Below are positions 17,843-25,619 of a stretch of DNA of 62,131 nt, piece by piece (position 1 is the first letter of the stretch; every line of letters begins with the position of its first letter). Under the pieces are notes generated by a model. It was not told where the DNA came from. It ran no database searches and worked only from the letters and a program-made list of their open reading frames with translations. The stretch comes from Tsukamurella sp. M9C (GTDB lineage: Bacteria > Actinomycetota > Actinomycetes > Mycobacteriales > Mycobacteriaceae), in NCBI RefSeq assembly GCF_020169415.1, contig NZ_JAIULG010000025.1:1-62131 (forward strand), read 5' to 3'. A program made the translations under genes and the position numbers.

Positions 17843-18703
17843 GTGACAGCTGGACGGTACGCGCCGAGCCCGTCGGGCGACCTGCACGTGGGCAACCTGC
17901 GCACGGCCCTGCTCGCCTGGCTCTTCGCCCGCTCGACGGGGCGGGACTTCCTGATGCGCGTCGAGGACCTGGACACCGGGCGCACGGCCGACGGTGCCGA
18001 GGCGCGCCAGCTCGCCGACCTCGCCGCGCTGGGCCTGGACTGGGACGGCGACGTGGTGCGCCAGTCGTCGCGGACGGAGCGCTACGCGGCCGCGCTGGAG
18101 CGGCTCGACGTCTACGAGTGCTACTGCACCCGCCGGGAGATCCTCGCCGCCCCGTCGGCGCCGCACGCCCCGGAAGGCGCGTACCCGGGCACGTGCCGCG
18201 ATCTCACCGAGGCCGAGCGGGACGTGCGGCGGCGGGGGGAGCGGCCCGCGGCGGTGCGCCTGCGCGCGACCGTCGACCGGTTCACGGTGACCGACGTGCT
18301 GCACGGCGAGTTCACCGGCGCCGTCGACGATGTCGTGCTCCTCCGGGGCGACGGGACGTACGCCTACAACCTCGCCGTCGTGGTCGACGACGCCGCGCAG
18401 GGCATCGACCAGGTGGTGCGCGGCGACGACCTGCTCTCCTCCGCGCCGCGGCAGGCCTACCTGACGAGCCTGCTGGGCGGTACGCCGCCGACTTACGCCC
18501 ACGTGCCGATGGTGCTGGGGCCCACCGGCGTCCGGCTCGCCAAGCGCGACGGTGCCGTCACCCTCGCCGAGCGCGGCGGGCCGTCGGTCGTGCTGCCGGA
18601 GCTCGCCGCGAGCCTGGGGCTGCAGGGCCGCACGCCGCAGGAGATGCTCGACCGCTTCGACCCCGCGCGGCTACCGCGCGAGCCCTGGACGCTACCGCTC
18701 TGA
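17843..18703 (+). CDS. gluQ: Glutamyl-Q tRNA(Asp) synthetase
   Basis: A 286-residue truncated glutamyl-tRNA synthetase homologue that lacks the anticodon-binding domain. It attaches glutamate to the queuosine base of tRNA-Asp. HIGH-type motif [10 protein letters not shown] (about 8), zinc ligands CYC (about 93) with YPGTC (about 113), and KMSK-type motif [11 protein letters not shown] (about 232) are all present. GTG start, 9 bases after the WYL gene. Its function depends on queuosine, and a tRNA-guanine transglycosylase domain is encoded 1.3 kb away. Confidence 0.93.
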
Positions 18704-18967: not shown

Positions 18968-19957
18968 TCAAGATCCGGCCACGGGCCGGGCGGAGCTGCG
19001 GCCCACCTCGCTGCCGCGGAAGCGCTCGCGGTAGGCCGTCGGCGCGAGTCCGGTCTGTCGCTTGAAGTGGTAGCGCAGCGTCTCCTCGGCGTCGAAGCCC
19101 GCCCGGCCGGTGATCACGGCGACGGAGTCGTTGGTCGTCTCCAGCAGCCGCATGGCGCGGTAGACCCGTTGCCGCATCAGCCATTCCAGCGGAGCGATGC
19201 CGGTGTACTGCCGGAACCGGCGGTGCAGGGTGCGGCGGGAGACGCCCGCGCGGGCCGCCATGTCGTCGAGGCCCTTGACCCCGCTGATGCCGTGCGCGAG
19301 CCCCTGCAGGAAGTCGGCGAAGCGCTTGTCCATGTCGGGCCGCAGGGTGTCGATGTTGACGAACTGCGACTGGTCGCCGTCGCGGTGCGGCGCGACCACC
19401 AGGCGTCGGGCGACCTCGTTCGCGGTGGCGGCGCCGTGGTCGGTGCGGATGAGGTGCAGGCACAGGTCGAGCCCCGCCGCGGAGCCCGCGCCGGTGAGCA
19501 CCGGGCCGTCCTGGATGTACAGCTCCGACGGCGTGACGTGCACCCGCGGGAAGCGGTACTGCAGCAGCCCCGCGTGCCGCCAGTGCGTCGTGGCCCGCCG
19601 GCCGTCGAGCAGGCCCGCCGCGGCGAGCGCGAAGGCGCCGGTGCAGATGGAGACGATCCGCGCGCCGTTCGCCGCCGCCGCGCGCAGCGGCTCGTGCCAC
19701 TCCGGGTTCGAATCGGTCCGCGGGTCCGAGACCGCCGTGATGATGACGGTGTCGGCGCCCGCGATCTCGTCGAGGCCGTACGCGGGCTGCAGCACGGCGC
19801 CGCCGAGCGTCCGTACCCCGTCGGCCGGGCCGCAGCCGCGCACGTCGTACCCGAGCGACGGGAGGTCGTTCCACTCGAAGCTCAGCGCCTCGAGCACGGT
19901 GCCGTACTCGAGCATCGTCATCCCGTCGCAGACGGGCAGCGCCACCACGTGGGACAT
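18968..19957 (-). CDS. GlxA-type AraC regulator (DJ-1/PfpI + HTH_18)
   Basis: A 329-residue regulator. The N-terminal DJ-1/PfpI-like domain (about 1-180) has the elbow VSICTGAFALAAAGLLDGR. The C-terminal AraC domain (about 215-315) has SRRTLHRRFRQYTGIAPLEWL and the second helix-turn-helix AGFDAEETLRYHFKRQTG. The family senses small amines or other metabolites. AGGA precedes the start. It has a homologue at 47839-48804. Confidence 0.93.
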   Translation of the reverse strand: MSHVVALPVCDGMTMLEYGTVLEALSFEWNDLPSLGYDVRGCGPADGVRTLGGAVLQPAYGLDEIAGADTVIITAVSDPRTDSNPEWHEPLRAAAANGARIVSICTGAFALAAAGLLDGRRATTHWRHAGLLQYRFPRVHVTPSELYIQDGPVLTGAGSAAGLDLCLHLIRTDHGAATANEVARRLVVAPHRDGDQSQFVNIDTLRPDMDKRFADFLQGLAHGISGVKGLDDMAARAGVSRRTLHRRFRQYTGIAPLEWLMRQRVYRAMRLLETTNDSVAVITGRAGFDAEETLRYHFKRQTGLAPTAYRERFRGSEVGRSSARPVAGS

Positions 19958-19991
19958 GTCCGAATCCTACGGGGCGGCGGGCCCCCGCGGC

Positions 19992-22900
19992 CTAGTCGGA
20001 CTTGGCGAGGTGCTGCTGGGTGCCCTTGTAGTAGCGACCCAGGAACTCCTCCTTGAAGTCCCAGTACGTGCCGTCGAGCATCGACTGCCGGATCTTCGCG
20101 ACCAGGGAGACGATGAACTGCTCGTTGTGGATGGTGGCCAGCGTGGCCGCGAGGCCCTCCTTCGCCTTGAACAGGTGATGGATGTACGCGCGGGTGTACT
20201 GCGAGGTGTAGTTCTGCGTCTCCGGGTCCAGCGGGCGGAAGTCCGTCTTGAACCGCGAATTGGTCACGTTGTAGCGGCCGTCGAGCGAGTAGATCGCGCC
20301 GTTGCGGGCCACCCGCGACGGCGAGACGCAGTCGAAGGTGTCGATGCCCTGCTCGACCGCGGCGAAGATGTCGTCCGGCTCGGAGATGCCCAGCAGGTGC
20401 TTCGGCCGGTCCTCCTCGAGCTCCTGGTTCACCCAGCGCACGATGGTCGACAGGTTCGCCTTCTCCAGCGCGCCGCCGATGCCGTAGCCGCCGAAGCCGA
20501 GTCCGCCGGAGAGCCGGTCCTCCTCGCTCAGCGCGCGCAGGTCACGGGCCGCCTTGCGGCGCAGGTCCTCGTACTGCGCGCCCTGCACGACGCCCCACAA
20601 CGAGATCGCGTCCCGCCGCTGCGCGGTGAGCCAGTTGTGCTCGGAGAGGCAGCGCCGCGCCCACAGGCGGGTGCGCTCCAGCGACTCCACCTGGTACGCG
20701 CGGCTGTTGTGCAGCGTCGTCAGCTCGTCGAAGGCGAAGATGACGTCGGCGCCCAGCTGATGCTGGATCTGCATCGACACCTCGGGCGTGAACCGGTGCT
20801 CGGTGCCGTCGAGGTGACTCAGGAAGGTCACGCCGTCGTCGTCGACGCGGGAGAGCCGGTCCTTGCCCTCGGCGATCGCGTCGTCACCCTGCAGCTCCTC
20901 GCCGCCGGTCATGTCGATGACCTTCTTGAACCCGGAGCCGAGCGACATCACCTGGAAGCCACCGGAATCGGTGAAGGTGGGGCCGTCCCAGTTCATGAAC
21001 GCACCGAGGCCGCCGGCCTGCTCCACGATCTCCGGGCCGGGCTGCAGGTACAGGTGGTAGGCGTTCGCCAGCACCGCCTGCGCGCCCAGCTCCGAGACCG
21101 CCTCGGGCAGCACCGTCTTCACCGTGGCCTTGGTGCCGACGGGGATGAAGGCGGGGGTGAGCATCTCGCCGTGCGGCGTGAGCAGCCGGCCGGCGCGGCC
21201 GAGCGGACCGTCGGGGCCCTCGAGGCGCCCCTCGATCTCGAACCGCGTGGGGTCGCTGATGTGCTCGCTCTGCAGCCGCGTGCGGCTCGTCATCGAGCGG
21301 TAGTCGGAGCGCAGCGCGCTGAGCTCTGCCGCGATCGCCTTGTTCTGCTCGCGCAGCTGGGCGATCTCGTCGCGGGTGCGGTCGCGGGCGACGATCGGGC
21401 CGGTCGCGGTCTGGTCCGGGCGCGGGACGCCGGGCCGTGCGACCGGGTACTCGCCGGTGTCCGGCGCGACCGTATCCGGTGCCGCGGTGGCCACCTGTTC
21501 CGTGTCGGCGTACACGGGCGCCTGCTCGGTGACGTGCTCGTCGTCCTTGCCGAGGGGCACCAGCGGCACGGGCACCGTCGGTGCGGCCGTGGGGAGCTCG
21601 GCGCCGTTGGCGTGGCCGTTGGCGTGGCCGTTCACGCCGGCCTGCGCGACCCGCGCCTTGCCGCGGGCGTGCACGTCGGTCGCGCCGGCGGCGACGAGCT
21701 GCTCGGTCGGGACCGGGATCTCGGCCGTGGTCTGCGCGGGGATCGCGGCGGTGTCGGCGTTCGCGTCGCCGCGGCCGAGCTGGGCGACGAGCGCCTCTCC
21801 CTCGATGTCGACGTTGGGCAGGATCTTGTCGAGCCACTTCGGCAGCCACCATGCCCACTTACCGAGGAGCATCATCACCGACGGGATGATCACCAGGCGC
21901 ACCACGAAGGCGTCCAGCAGCACGGCGGCGGCGAGGCCGAAGCCGATCTCCTTGATGAAGACCTGTTCGTTGAGGATGAACGAGGCGAAGACCGAGATCA
22001 TGATGATCGCCGCGGCGGTCACGACGCGGGCGCCGTACTGCACGCCCGTCACCACGGACTGCGTGGCGTCGCCGGTGTGCACGAATTCCTCGCGCATCCG
22101 GGAGACGAGGAAGACCTGGTAGTCCATCGCGAGGCCGAAAACGATGCCGATCATGAAGATCGGCAGGAACGAGACCAACGGCTGCGTGTTGTCGATGAGG
22201 CCGAGGGCACCGTCGGTGAAGATCGCGGAGGTCACGCCGAACGTCGCGACCACGGACAGCAGGAAGCCCAGCGCGGCCGTGAGCGGCACCAGGATCGAGC
22301 GGAAGGCGACGAGCAGCAGCAGGAACGCCAGCCCGACGACGATCGCCAGGTACTTGGGCAGCGCGTTCTTGTTGAGCTCCTCCGAGATGTCCATCTCGAT
22401 GGCGGTGCTGCCCGCGACGCCGAGGTCCACGCCGAGCCGCGCCTTCGTGCCGGCCTCGCCGTTGACCATGGTGCGGAGCTTGGTCACCAGGGTCTTCGTT
22501 TCGTCGTCGTTCGGCCCGGACTTGGGCGTCACGATGATCGTGGCCGCCGCGTTGTCCGCCGCGAGCTGCGCGATCTGCGCGTTCGCGATCAGCGGCGCGA
22601 TGTTGGGGTTGCTGTTCAGTTGGTCGACGATCTGCTTGTAGGCGCCGAGGCGCTGGTTGGGCTGGGCCCCGGCACCGTCGACCGCGACGAGGAGGGTGCC
22701 GTTGGCGCCCTTGCCCCAGGCGTCGGAGATCAGGTCGTAGGCCTGGCGCTCCGATGTGCTCTTCTCGCTCATGCCCGAGCCGGGCAGGGCGGTCTTCATG
22801 TCCTTCATCGGGATGGCGAGGATGCCGAGGACGGCGACACCCGCGACGAGGGTGACGACGGGGACCTTCTTCACCAGGTTGGCCCAGCGCAGGCCGTTGG

Positions 22901-24149
22901 CGACGCGGCCCTCGCCCTGGTCGGTGTCCTGCGGGTGCAGGCCCTTGACCCGGCCGGCGAAGACCTTGGAGCCGAACAGGCCGAGCAGGGCAGGGAGCAG
23001 GGTCAGCGCGACGATGACGGCGATGAACACGCCCCACGCGGCGGCGACGCCCATCTGGCCGAGGAAGTCCATGCCGATGAAGGCCAGCGCGGCGAGCGCG
23101 ATGATCACCGTCAGGCCGGCGAAGATCACGGCGGTGCCGGCCGTGCCCACGGCGATGCCCGCGGCCTCGGCCCGCTGCTCCTTGGTGGTGGCGCCCAGGC
23201 GCCGGAGTTCGTGCCGGTATCTCGAGACGATGAACAGGGCGTAGTCGATGGTGACGGCCAGGCCGATCATCGACGTCAGCACCGTCGGGAAGGTACCGAG
23301 CTCGACGAAGTGGGTGGCGATCATGACGCCGCCGATGGCCACGGGGACCGCGATGATCGCGTTGATCAGCGGCAGGCCCCACGCGACGAGCGAGGCGAAG
23401 GTGATGATCAGCACGATCGCGGCGACGATCATGCCGATGATCTCGCTGGTCATGCCCATGTCCTCGGCGCCGCGGGCGGCGGAACCGTCGGCCTCGACCT
23501 GCAGGGTGCCGTTCGACGCGGCCTCGCCGGCCTCGCGGGCCTTCTTGATGTCCTCGGAGAGGGTGTCCGGGAGCTCCGTGACCTTGCCGATGAAGTTCAC
23601 GGTGATCTTGGCGGTCTTGCCGTCGGGGCTCACCGACGAGGTGGCCGCCGCGTCGGCGTCCTTCTGCGCCTGCGTCTTGGTCGACGCGATGTCCTTGCCC
23701 TGCGCCGTCATCGTCTCGAGCTTCGAGCGCTGGTCCGGGGTGAGGGCGTTCGTGTCCAGCTTGCCCGTCGGGTTGTGCAGCAGCTCGGGGTCCTGCACCA
23801 CGGAGACCTTCCGGCCGTCCTCGTCCTTGGTGAGGTTCTTGATGTCGGCGATGGTCCGGTCGATGCCCGCCGCGGCCGCCGGATCGGTGAGCTTGCCGTC
23901 CTTGGTGTGGAAGACGATGGTCGCCGAGGCGGTGGTGAACGGGTCGCCGCCGTTGTCGCCGAAGTTCGCGGAGACGATGTCCGTCGCCTTCGCCGAGGGC
24001 AGGCCCGGCAGCGAGAAGTTGTCGACCGTGGGCTTGCTGAGCAGCGCGCCGCCCGCAAGCATGCCGACGAAGATCAGCAGCCAGGCCGCGATGACTTTGA
24101 AACGATTGAGGTAGGCGAACCTCCCCAGCCGGTACAGGAACAGTGCCAT
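19992..24149 (-). CDS. MMPL/RND transporter fused in frame to tRNA-guanine transglycosylase
   Basis: One frame of 1385 codons encodes two proteins normally separate. Residues 1 to about 770 form an MMPL/RND transporter: MALFLYRLGRFAYLNRFK start, about 12 membrane helices, two periplasmic domains. Residues about 770-952 are a polar Ala/Pro/Thr linker ending in a coiled coil (RDEIAQLREQNKAIAAELSAL). Residues about 953-1385 are a full-length Tgt. It has Asp1061 in FTDSGGFQ, nucleophile Asp1273 in DTFDCVSPSRVARNG and the helix YTRAYIHHLFKAKEGLA. The zinc cysteines are replaced (T1311, N1313, S1316). ATG at 24149 has GGAG upstream. The internal ATG at 21293 (MTSRTRLQ) has no visible ribosome site, so a true fusion seems likelier than two genes. 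Confidence 0.85.
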   Translation of the reverse strand: MALFLYRLGRFAYLNRFKVIAAWLLIFVGMLAGGALLSKPTVDNFSLPGLPSAKATDIVSANFGDNGGDPFTTASATIVFHTKDGKLTDPAAAAGIDRTIADIKNLTKDEDGRKVSVVQDPELLHNPTGKLDTNALTPDQRSKLETMTAQGKDIASTKTQAQKDADAAATSSVSPDGKTAKITVNFIGKVTELPDTLSEDIKKAREAGEAASNGTLQVEADGSAARGAEDMGMTSEIIGMIVAAIVLIITFASLVAWGLPLINAIIAVPVAIGGVMIATHFVELGTFPTVLTSMIGLAVTIDYALFIVSRYRHELRRLGATTKEQRAEAAGIAVGTAGTAVIFAGLTVIIALAALAFIGMDFLGQMGVAAAWGVFIAVIVALTLLPALLGLFGSKVFAGRVKGLHPQDTDQGEGRVANGLRWANLVKKVPVVTLVAGVAVLGILAIPMKDMKTALPGSGMSEKSTSERQAYDLISDAWGKGANGTLLVAVDGAGAQPNQRLGAYKQIVDQLNSNPNIAPLIANAQIAQLAADNAAATIIVTPKSGPNDDETKTLVTKLRTMVNGEAGTKARLGVDLGVAGSTAIEMDISEELNKNALPKYLAIVVGLAFLLLLVAFRSILVPLTAALGFLLSVVATFGVTSAIFTDGALGLIDNTQPLVSFLPIFMIGIVFGLAMDYQVFLVSRMREEFVHTGDATQSVVTGVQYGARVVTAAAIIMISVFASFILNEQVFIKEIGFGLAAAVLLDAFVVRLVIIPSVMMLLGKWAWWLPKWLDKILPNVDIEGEALVAQLGRGDANADTAAIPAQTTAEIPVPTEQLVAAGATDVHARGKARVAQAGVNGHANGHANGAELPTAAPTVPVPLVPLGKDDEHVTEQAPVYADTEQVATAAPDTVAPDTGEYPVARPGVPRPDQTATGPIVARDRTRDEIAQLREQNKAIAAELSALRSDYRSMTSRTRLQSEHISDPTRFEIEGRLEGPDGPLGRAGRLLTPHGEMLTPAFIPVGTKATVKTVLPEAVSELGAQAVLANAYHLYLQPGPEIVEQAGGLGAFMNWDGPTFTDSGGFQVMSLGSGFKKVIDMTGGEELQGDDAIAEGKDRLSRVDDDGVTFLSHLDGTEHRFTPEVSMQIQHQLGADVIFAFDELTTLHNSRAYQVESLERTRLWARRCLSEHNWLTAQRRDAISLWGVVQGAQYEDLRRKAARDLRALSEEDRLSGGLGFGGYGIGGALEKANLSTIVRWVNQELEEDRPKHLLGISEPDDIFAAVEQGIDTFDCVSPSRVARNGAIYSLDGRYNVTNSRFKTDFRPLDPETQNYTSQYTRAYIHHLFKAKEGLAATLATIHNEQFIVSLVAKIRQSMLDGTYWDFKEEFLGRYYKGTQQHLAKSD

Positions 24150-24292
24150 GCGAGTCACTCCGAGTCGTCGAGGCGCGACGGGCTGCGCGATGCGGGTCGT
24201 GTTCGAGTGTACCGATCGTTGCCGCCCGCAATAATGTCGCTGACCGGCACTTTTGTGAGGCTCATCACCGAAACGCGGGTAGCGTGCAGGGC

Positions 24293-24682
24293 ATGACCGC
24301 ATTTCAGCACTTCGCAACGCCTGTCACAGCCGTCGCAACTGCAACAGTGTGCGGCCTGCTCCTCGCGGGCTGCGGCAGTTCGTCCGACCCCGCACCCGCG
24401 CCGTCGGGCGCACCGTCGGCCACGGCGACGGTGGCCGAGACCCGCGCCGAGATGTGCGGGCAGACCCGCGGCCCCGACGGGGCCCTGTACGTCCACGCGC
24501 TCGGCACCGTGAAGGTGGACTGCGCCGAGGCGATGCGCGTCGCGAACGCCTTCGGCCCGCAGATCGCGATGGCGAAGCCCGTCACCGTGGACGGCTGGAA
24601 CTGCACCTTCCCGCAGACCCCCGGGATGCTCGCGCGCTGCGACAGCGGCGACAAGGCGATCGGCTTCTTCAGCTCCCACTGA
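24293..24682 (+). CDS. Small lipoprotein with four conserved-looking cysteines
   Basis: A 129-residue lipoprotein with lipobox LLAGC (Cys at about 28) and a Ser/Pro/Ala-rich spacer. The compact domain has cysteines in EMCGQ, VDCAEA, NCTFPQ and ARCDSG, suggesting two disulphides. ATG at 24293 gives the signal peptide. The family is not recognised. The gene converges with the NAT-like gene, overlapping its end by 14 bases. Confidence 0.75.
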   Translation: MTAFQHFATPVTAVATATVCGLLLAGCGSSSDPAPAPSGAPSATATVAETRAEMCGQTRGPDGALYVHALGTVKVDCAEAMRVANAFGPQIAMAKPVTVDGWNCTFPQTPGMLARCDSGDKAIGFFSSH

Positions 24683-25508
24683 CCGCCGCGAGCGCGGCGG
24701 CCTCGTCCTCGGGCAGGTCGATCGCGAAGGTCGCGGCCAGGATCGCCTGACGGTCCGCCGCCGCGTACGGCATGGACTCCTTGAACCCGTCGGGGCGGGT
24801 GGTGATCACCGCGTCGCGCGTGAGCACGTGCCGCTCGCCGGGCCGGTTGACCACCGCCATGAGCCGCCCGCGGAAGGGCGAGTGCGGCGAGGTCGCGACG
24901 TAGAAGTTGGTCATCCGCAGGTCCGACCACGTGCGGTCGGTGAGCGCGAACCGGTACTGCGGCCGCCACTGGTGGGCCGAGCTCGGGTCGAGGAAGTCGA
25001 GCTGCCACTCCTCGGCGAAGCCGACGGTCGACGCCGTGAGCCGGTATCGCCAGCCGTCGGCGTCCTGCTCGAGGCCGCTCTCCAGCCGCAGCGGCGCGAG
25101 CGGGACCGCGCCGAAGCCGACCTCGGCGAGGTGCGGCGCACCGTCGACCTCGACGACGAGCAGGGCGTGCGTGCTCGCGGAGGGGCGGCCGTCGACCAGC
25201 ACGCGGCCCGACGCGGCGCCGAACCGGAAGCCCGTGCGCTGCAAGACCGCGGCCAGGAGCGGGACGTGGCCCGTGCAGCCGTAACCGCGGCGGCCGCCGA
25301 TCATGCGCCGCTGCAGCGCGCCGACAGTGAGGTCGCCGGGAATCCCGCGGACGGCGTCGAAGTTCTCCCACGGCAGGGTCGTCGCGTGCGCCCGGACCAG
25401 CGTGGACAGGCCGGCGAGGTCGGGCGCGGGCGGGGCGCTGAGGCCGACGCGCTCCAGGTACCGCGGCAGGTCGAGGGCGGGCGCGCCCCAGGCACCGTCG
25501 TCGTTCAT
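24669..25508 (-). CDS. Arylamine N-acetyltransferase-like enzyme
   Basis: A 279-residue member of the NAT family, which uses acyl-CoA and a Cys-His-Asp triad. LPWENFDAVRG (about 45) and GGRRGYGC (Cys78) are diagnostic. His114 lies in STHALLVV. The third residue is Glu129 (AEVGFG), where the family has Asp (VDVGFG). The motif around the cysteine (GCTGH) also differs from the usual GGYCFE. ATG at 25508 has GAGGGGG upstream and is preferred to the ATG ten codons earlier. It may have altered activity. Confidence 0.8.
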   Translation of the reverse strand: MNDDGAWGAPALDLPRYLERVGLSAPPAPDLAGLSTLVRAHATTLPWENFDAVRGIPGDLTVGALQRRMIGGRRGYGCTGHVPLLAAVLQRTGFRFGAASGRVLVDGRPSASTHALLVVEVDGAPHLAEVGFGAVPLAPLRLESGLEQDADGWRYRLTASTVGFAEEWQLDFLDPSSAHQWRPQYRFALTDRTWSDLRMTNFYVATSPHSPFRGRLMAVVNRPGERHVLTRDAVITTRPDGFKESMPYAAADRQAILAATFAIDLPEDEAAALAAVSGS

Positions 25509-25619
25509 CGTTTCCCCCTCGAAGGATCCCGCGACCATCGTGCCTCACCCGTGCGGACTACGCAGGTCCACCCGCGCGGGTGATCCGCCGCCGCGGGCTC
25601 CGTCCCTAGCGTTCCCCGT

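Follow-up and report, generated by a model that had tools for sequence, protein, structure and literature searches.

Proteins in which a membrane transporter is joined to a tRNA-guanine transglycosylase (TGT, with Tgt denoting the enzyme and tgt its gene) have been described before. In the available part of their report, Quaiyum et al. 2024 (PMC11130926), in search of transporter-TGT fusions, present MMPL-TGT and MFS-TGT fusions as unique to Tsukamurella, naming Tpau_0550 (MFS) and Tpau_4044 (MMPL), along with a QPTR-TGT fusion; the fusions were used there to look for transporters of queuosine precursors. According to the same text, MMPL genes cluster with tgt, an MMPL protein of Corynebacterium propinquum showed no preQ1 transport in E. 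coli, expression failure not being excluded, and three other nominated candidates did transport preQ0 and preQ1. As for the enzyme, the available parts of two further papers describe the bacterial TGT of Zymomonas mobilis as a homodimer (PMC5395182) and the eukaryotic TGT as a heterodimer of active QTRT1 and catalytically dead QTRT2 (PMC6165067). The present analysis deals with a gene of Tsukamurella sp. M9C that encodes an MMPL transporter fused in frame to a complete TGT, and with copies of the C-terminal part of this fusion on other transporters of the genus. The gene lies in a stretch of 62,131 nucleotides (contig NZ_JAIULG010000025.1 of assembly GCF_020169415.1), hereafter the window. An earlier note on this DNA had held that the two activities have no known link, a view that the MMPL-tgt clustering and the QPTR-TGT and Tsukamurella MMPL-TGT fusions published in 2024 (PMC11130926) do not support. 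The fusion itself is therefore not new; the wider setting of the module was not found in print, the fusion list in Table S1 of that report aside, and a literature search returned no further paper with those two accessions, nor any pairing Tsukamurella with queuine or tRNA-ribosyltransferase.

The reading to which the analysis leads, and to which we give about an even chance of being right, is that the window gene encodes the cell's only active, membrane-tethered Tgt and that the other fusions end in pseudo-TGT tails, which probably serve as pairing modules. The gene, the representative of what will be called class A, occupies 19992..24149 on the minus strand, as do all its parts, and consists of 1385 codons plus a stop in a single uninterrupted frame with an ATG start. 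From the N-terminus it encodes an MMPL transporter, a linker, a coiled coil, and a full TGT domain. The MMPL/RND transporter part (residues 1-795, 21765..24149) matches PF03176 in two stretches with 287.9 bits, above the cut-off of 20.5, and is thus a member of the MMPL family; it is not identified as the MmpL3 trehalose monomycolate exporter, the equivalog model NF052608 giving 199.5 bits for a cut-off of 1400. A simple hydropathy scan merges the transporter helices into 8 segments, so that hydropathy alone does not settle the helix number, which the note had put at 12; the last hydrophobic segment ends at residue 770, with none beyond. From there to the start of the TGT domain at about residues 966-984 extends the linker, whose Ala/Pro-rich portion (residues 796-925, 21375..21764) is weakly conserved and at whose end heptad analysis places a coiled coil of 28 residues (926-953, 21291..21374), with the cores I929, L932, N936, I939, L943, L946, Y950, and M953. 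The TGT domain (residues 966-1385, 19995..21254, as drawn from the Pfam stretch 984-1374 and residue tables) scores 376.2 bits with PF01702 over profile positions 3-356 of 357, and 375.4 bits with the equivalog TIGR00430, whose cut-off of 306.75 it exceeds. The long frame holding a transporter and then a full-length Tgt, and the linker that ends in a coiled coil, are hence as the earlier note had described them.

That the in-frame fusion is real is confirmed by the other genomes of the genus. Transporter and TGT share one open frame at the class A locus in 14 of 16 Tsukamurella genomes, and an assembly or base-calling artefact, including the error in the linker that had been named as a possible refutation, is rejected on this ground. 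The exceptions are Tsukamurella sp. PLM1 (G014; L071/L112), with an assembly rated 83% complete and a frame break in the linker for which a sequencing error and a real break are not distinguishable, and G006, in which class A is represented only by a TGT fragment located where a contig stops. At 70% G+C a long open frame is weak evidence, and selection is therefore the stronger argument for the fusion: over 91 pairs from 14 of the 15 class A loci (L071 left out), the median ratio of nonsynonymous to synonymous substitution rates (dN/dS) is 0.26 for the MMPL part, 0.52 for the linker, 0.079 for the coil, and 0.09 for the TGT.

The ATG start of the window gene has GGAG 8 nt upstream, and in a start scan of 14 of the 15 class A loci the true start was preceded by GGAG at 7-8 nt in all 14. 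The internal ATG at 21293 (21291..21293), which had been proposed as a possible start of a separate Tgt, is Met953, the final core residue of the coil; as a start it is not supported, in line with the note: 13 of 14 loci have this codon, with 2-3 of 6 Shine-Dalgarno matches, and L053 is without it. A GTG with 4 of 6 matches, a score similar to that of most true starts, occurs in 4 of 14 loci (L038, L060, L062, L067), at differing places and with no single conserved position. A separate Tgt made from an internal start is thought unlikely, as no ribosome site stands at a conserved position.

Relatives with a separate tgt illustrate how the fusion may have come about. TGT was found in 24 genomes outside the genus, and 20 loci were analysed (G039, G050, G053, and G054 were left out). 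An mmpl gene is directly upstream of tgt, on the same strand, in 5 of these 20 loci, and 2-4 kb upstream in 3 more; in L089 and L092, both from other genera, mmpl and tgt even stand in one frame with a single in-frame stop between them. A stop codon between the two parts in relatives had been put forward as evidence against the fusion. Such stops do exist in other genera, but the arrangement looks like the older, separate-gene state and not like an error. The coil was not seen ahead of any of the 20 separate Tgts compared, and since the Tsukamurella modules form one clade within the separate Tgts, one founding event suffices: in the ancestor of Tsukamurella, mmpl would have been joined to the adjoining tgt, and a linker with the coiled coil would have arisen between them.

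The TGT domain of class A keeps the residues expected of a working enzyme. All 21 active-site residues checked agree, by class majority, with those of the separate Tgts, the set comprising D102, D156, Q203, G230, D280, and others, with the numbering checked on Z. mobilis rows; these are the catalytic and base-binding positions. The window protein has the catalytic residues Asp1061 (D102) and Asp1273 (D280), and the dimer hot-spot residues Phe92, Tyr330, and His333 are kept in 14 or 15 of the 15 class A rows. The structural zinc site (C318, C320, C323, H349) is incomplete, with the three cysteines absent in 15/15 rows, the window protein included, and the histidine kept (His1341 in the window protein). 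Half of the separate Tgts (10/20 of L075-L094) also do without the CxCxxC zinc ligands and keep the catalytic residues, for which reason loss of the site as a consequence of fusion was rejected. The genome of the window (4.73 Mb, 110 contigs) contains three TGT regions; two lie in frames of 1443 and 1195 codons, and the third is truncated by a contig end. The two regions other than class A belong to the decayed classes described below. Class A is accordingly the only TGT with an intact site in this genome and apparently, judging from its residues, the only working copy in the genus.

The surroundings fit such a role. A gene for GluQRS, the tRNA glutamyl-Q(34) synthetase, lies at 17843..18703 on the plus strand (TIGR03838, 297.3 bits, cut-off 276.7), and GluQRS is found near tgt in 14/15 class A loci and 15/20 separate-tgt loci; it acts on queuosine-modified tRNA, and its presence near the fusion supports a working queuosine pathway. 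QPTR is present in the same genome, QueA was not found there, and the single, borderline match for QueC is an asparagine synthase. The combination of GluQRS and QPTR without QueA or QueC fits queuine salvage by a Tgt that would always be tied to the membrane: QPTR would import the precursor, Tgt would insert it, and GluQRS would glutamylate the product. We infer that the Tgt of the window gene is active and located at the membrane; it is very probably membrane-tethered, and would be the cell's only active Tgt, held at the cytoplasmic face by its MMPL transporter.

The more surprising part of the system, the degenerate copies of the module on other transporters, is found outside the window. A model of the coil gave 41 matches in the 16 Tsukamurella genomes, on five different transporters. 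These copies were assigned to class A, carried by the window MMPL (15), class F, carried by a DHA2-type MFS protein (15, including L054), class M2, carried by a second MMPL (8), an EmrB-like MFS (2, in G007 as L055 and in G006), and an LfrA-like MFS (1, in G013 as L068). The EmrB-like copy of G006 (L234, G006:C358:1-2600) is 81% identical to L055 and breaks off at the contig end, immediately behind the coil. Across the order, the coil had no match in 394 of 397 genomes, the remaining 3 being Tsukamurella, in a search that scored at most 17 candidates per genome and could have missed weak matches. In a separate genome search, four genomes outside the genus (G206, G219, G311, G403) had two matches each among the best-scoring ones listed.

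On the tree, coil and TGT behave as one module of single origin. All 38 Tsukamurella module rows fall in one clade (support 100/100), inside which the pseudo-TGTs form a clade of their own (100/100); two of the eight M2 rows (L037 and L049) were left out of the rooted tree. The module of G013 (L068) is 72-75% identical to L036 and L039 and 69% identical to L070, and is nested in class F (99/89); its transporter is only 24% identical to the F-type MFS, a case that shows the module moving between transporters. In the other genera of the family, 15 of 21 genomes encode the F-type MFS at 62-70% identity, in frames of 564-855 aa that lie at a distance from tgt. The class A and M2 MMPL proteins are 40% identical, and G011 has an M2-like MMPL (67% identity) with no remnant of the module downstream; whether M2 is a plain duplicate of the class A MMPL is left indecisive by the MMPL tree, with forks at 87/79 and 87/85 and long branches. 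After the founding fusion, copies of coil and TGT would have been added to one MFS protein and to a second MMPL, and in a small number of genomes to two more MFS proteins.

Several of these loci are incomplete. A frame break separates transporter and module in L072 and L071 (G014), and a contig end cuts the gene in L037 and at the G006 locus. In L049 (G004:C3:3866500-3879500) about 3.7 kb of other sequence separates the two parts of the M2 MMPL-TGT gene, and in the genome of the window the M2 gene is apparently split by an assembly gap, the MMPL ending C40 and the coil and TGT ending C31 (L208, L212).

The copies have lost their active sites to different degrees. Of the 21 active-site residues that class A keeps in full, 11 are left in L054 (the F-orthologue of G007, on a basal branch), 6 in class F and in L068, 5 in L055, and 3 in M2. 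The M2 TGT has large deletions, with about 50 residues lost after the first catalytic aspartate, and glutamate replaces the nucleophile in 7 of 8 rows. With TIGR00430, a class F tail (L036) reaches 195.1 bits and a class M2 tail (L040) 111.9 bits, both below the cut-off of 306.75 and hence outside the equivalog, with PF01702 scores of 226.8 and 129.4 bits, respectively. The tails of classes F and M2 are, to judge from these residues and scores, probably no longer enzymes. A catalytically dead TGT of the QTRT2 type would combine a lost site with a retained fold; in classes F and M2 the site is lost and the PF01702 match is kept, and the tails may retain the TGT fold.

While the site decayed, the coil did not. 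Its dN/dS is 0.079 in class A, 0.106 in class F (13 of the 17 loci listed for F, with L054, L055, L068, and L072 left out), and 0.117 in class M2 (6 of 8 loci, without L037 and L049), next to 0.46-0.53 for the linkers. The corresponding values for the TGT are 0.09, 0.20, and 0.35, all below neutrality, and those for the transporter 0.26, 0.16, and 0.091, so that no part has a lower dN/dS than the coil in A and F, and in M2 only the MMPL does. The heptads of the coil are regular, with hydrophobic fractions of 0.75 and 0.98-1.0 at the two core phases, and 40 of 40 module rows share an asparagine at one core position. An asparagine at an 'a' core position favours parallel dimers. The sequence pattern of a parallel two-stranded coil, an a/d heptad whose 'a' core positions include an Asn, is present, and this oligomeric state is a predicted one; in an AlphaFold model of the window protein the coil is a single helix (residues 924-956) with pLDDT of about 65 or lower.

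A constrained coil with a buried asparagine suggests pairing. In the proposed mechanism, the copies lost the active site and kept the coil and a recognisable TGT domain, and a parallel two-stranded coil together with a TGT-type dimer would join like with like; alternatively, a transporter with a pseudo-TGT would be joined to the active Tgt, as QTRT2 is to QTRT1. The broader proposal that coil and pseudo-TGT form a portable membrane-assembly module, by which exporters pair with one another or with the active, membrane-tethered Tgt, is a tentative one that we hold to be somewhat doubtful. The decayed tails on several transporters hint at a new use for a dead enzyme.

A number of observations weigh against pairing by the module, or against the strength of its support. 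The dimer-interface stretch 326-352 keeps, among the residues invariant in separate Tgts, 11 of 12 in class F and 8 of 12 in M2, and a circular-shift test (15/166 for F, 25/166 for M2) finds conservation of this stretch in the pseudo-TGTs not significantly enriched; it is for this reason that we infer the pairing and do not report it as a finding. The hot-spot residue Phe92 is lost in 15 of 17 class F rows (Ala in 14, Val in 1), and an aromatic residue at position 326 remains in just 1 of 8 M2 rows. In M2, moreover, constraint is stronger on the MMPL (0.091) than on the coil (0.117) and weak on the TGT (0.35). No M2 gene was found in 8 of the 16 genomes, and that of G004 is interrupted, so that the M2 tail may be dispensable. 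In the module tree, M2 and L055 have long branches and an uneven composition, and the AlphaFold model has a middling mean pLDDT of 69.9, with a TGT domain of mixed confidence.

Two other explanations of the fusions are each unlikely in our estimate. The first follows the published reasoning and is substrate channelling, in which each fused transporter imports a queuosine precursor and passes it to its own TGT domain. It was by fusion and by clustering with tgt that the MMPL and MFS families were nominated as transporters (PMC11130926), and the available text shows three other candidates from the same work to be active on preQ0 and preQ1; that mmpl immediately precedes tgt in 5 of the 20 loci with a separate tgt points the same way. 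However, most base-binding residues are gone from the TGTs on the MFS and second MMPL carriers, which probably leaves no enzyme to be supplied. Efflux families give the best scores for the MFS parts, 15 of 21 genomes from other genera of the family have the F-type MFS at a distance from tgt, and the sole MMPL tested, that of C. propinquum, gave the negative result mentioned above, with its caveat on expression. The genome has QPTR besides, and because an importer of known type exists and the other TGT copies lost most base-binding residues, the fused transporters probably do not serve to feed Tgt.

The second, which we consider improbable to a like degree, is that the tails are non-adaptive passengers, fused TGT copies that decay slowly and do nothing. 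In its favour are the decaying active sites, the large deletions of the M2 TGT and its dN/dS, the highest of the TGT classes (0.35), the interruption of M2 in G004, and the M2-like MMPL without a module in G011. Yet all TGT classes have a dN/dS well below 1, no part is under stronger constraint than the coil in A and F, with only the MMPL ahead of it in M2, and the module has been placed on new transporters more than once. In addition, all 25 loci of the F list and of M2 have an open coil-TGT stretch, although open frames are cheap at this G+C and in L072 and L049 the transporter is out of frame or broken off. A last explanation, that Tgt is freed by proteolysis of the long, weakly conserved linker (dN/dS 0.52) or is also made from one of the internal ATG, GTG, or TTG codons, the fusion merely coupling expression, seems quite improbable, given that the better-scoring GTGs (4 of 14 loci) have no one conserved position, that Met953 is a core residue of the coil with a poor ribosome site and is missing in L053 when the true start has GGAG in 14/14, and that a strongly constrained coil right after the linker is unneeded for mere co-expression.

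Other features of the window adjoin the fusion gene. A gene for a GlxA-like regulator with DJ-1/PfpI and AraC helix-turn-helix parts lies at 18968-19957 (minus strand), and one of the arylamine N-acetyltransferase family at 24669-25538 (minus strand). Of the 15 class A loci, not all of full length, 12 have the former next to the fusion and 9 the latter. An antisense open reading frame of 1699 aa (19197-24296, plus strand) lies opposite the fusion gene and is probably a by-product of the high G+C.

Compared with known systems, the locus stands closest to the Tpau_4044 and Tpau_0550 fusions (PMC11130926), which come from the same genus, have the same architectures, and are probably orthologues of classes A and F; outside Table S1, the available text of that report is silent on active-site loss, on further carriers of the module, and on the coil. 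The QPTR-TGT fusion described there likewise joins a transporter to a bacterial TGT, but QPTR, known to transport preQ0 and preQ1, belongs to a different family, while the Tsukamurella carriers are MMPL and DHA2-type MFS proteins; a transporter-TGT fusion is by itself no proof that the transporter carries queuosine precursors. What the genus adds is a series of steps, from neighbouring genes to a fusion and on to a portable, apparently non-catalytic domain, that can be traced within one family, and with it the membrane confinement of a tRNA modification and the role of a dead TGT become testable questions. Like the TGT of Z. mobilis (PMC5395182, available part), class A keeps the 21 active-site residues together with Phe92, Tyr330, and His333; unlike it, class A is without CxCxxC, has Tyr or Phe in place of Trp326, and is fused to a membrane protein. 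The dead partner QTRT2 has glutamate in place of the nucleophile Asp279 (PMC6165067, likewise in part), as class M2 has in 7 of its 8 rows. If the proposed pairing is correct, Tsukamurella would hold a bacterial counterpart of QTRT1-QTRT2 that links tRNA wobble modification to exporters, with the differences that its pseudo-TGTs arose independently within the genus and are fused to transporters, and that their pairing is a predicted one.

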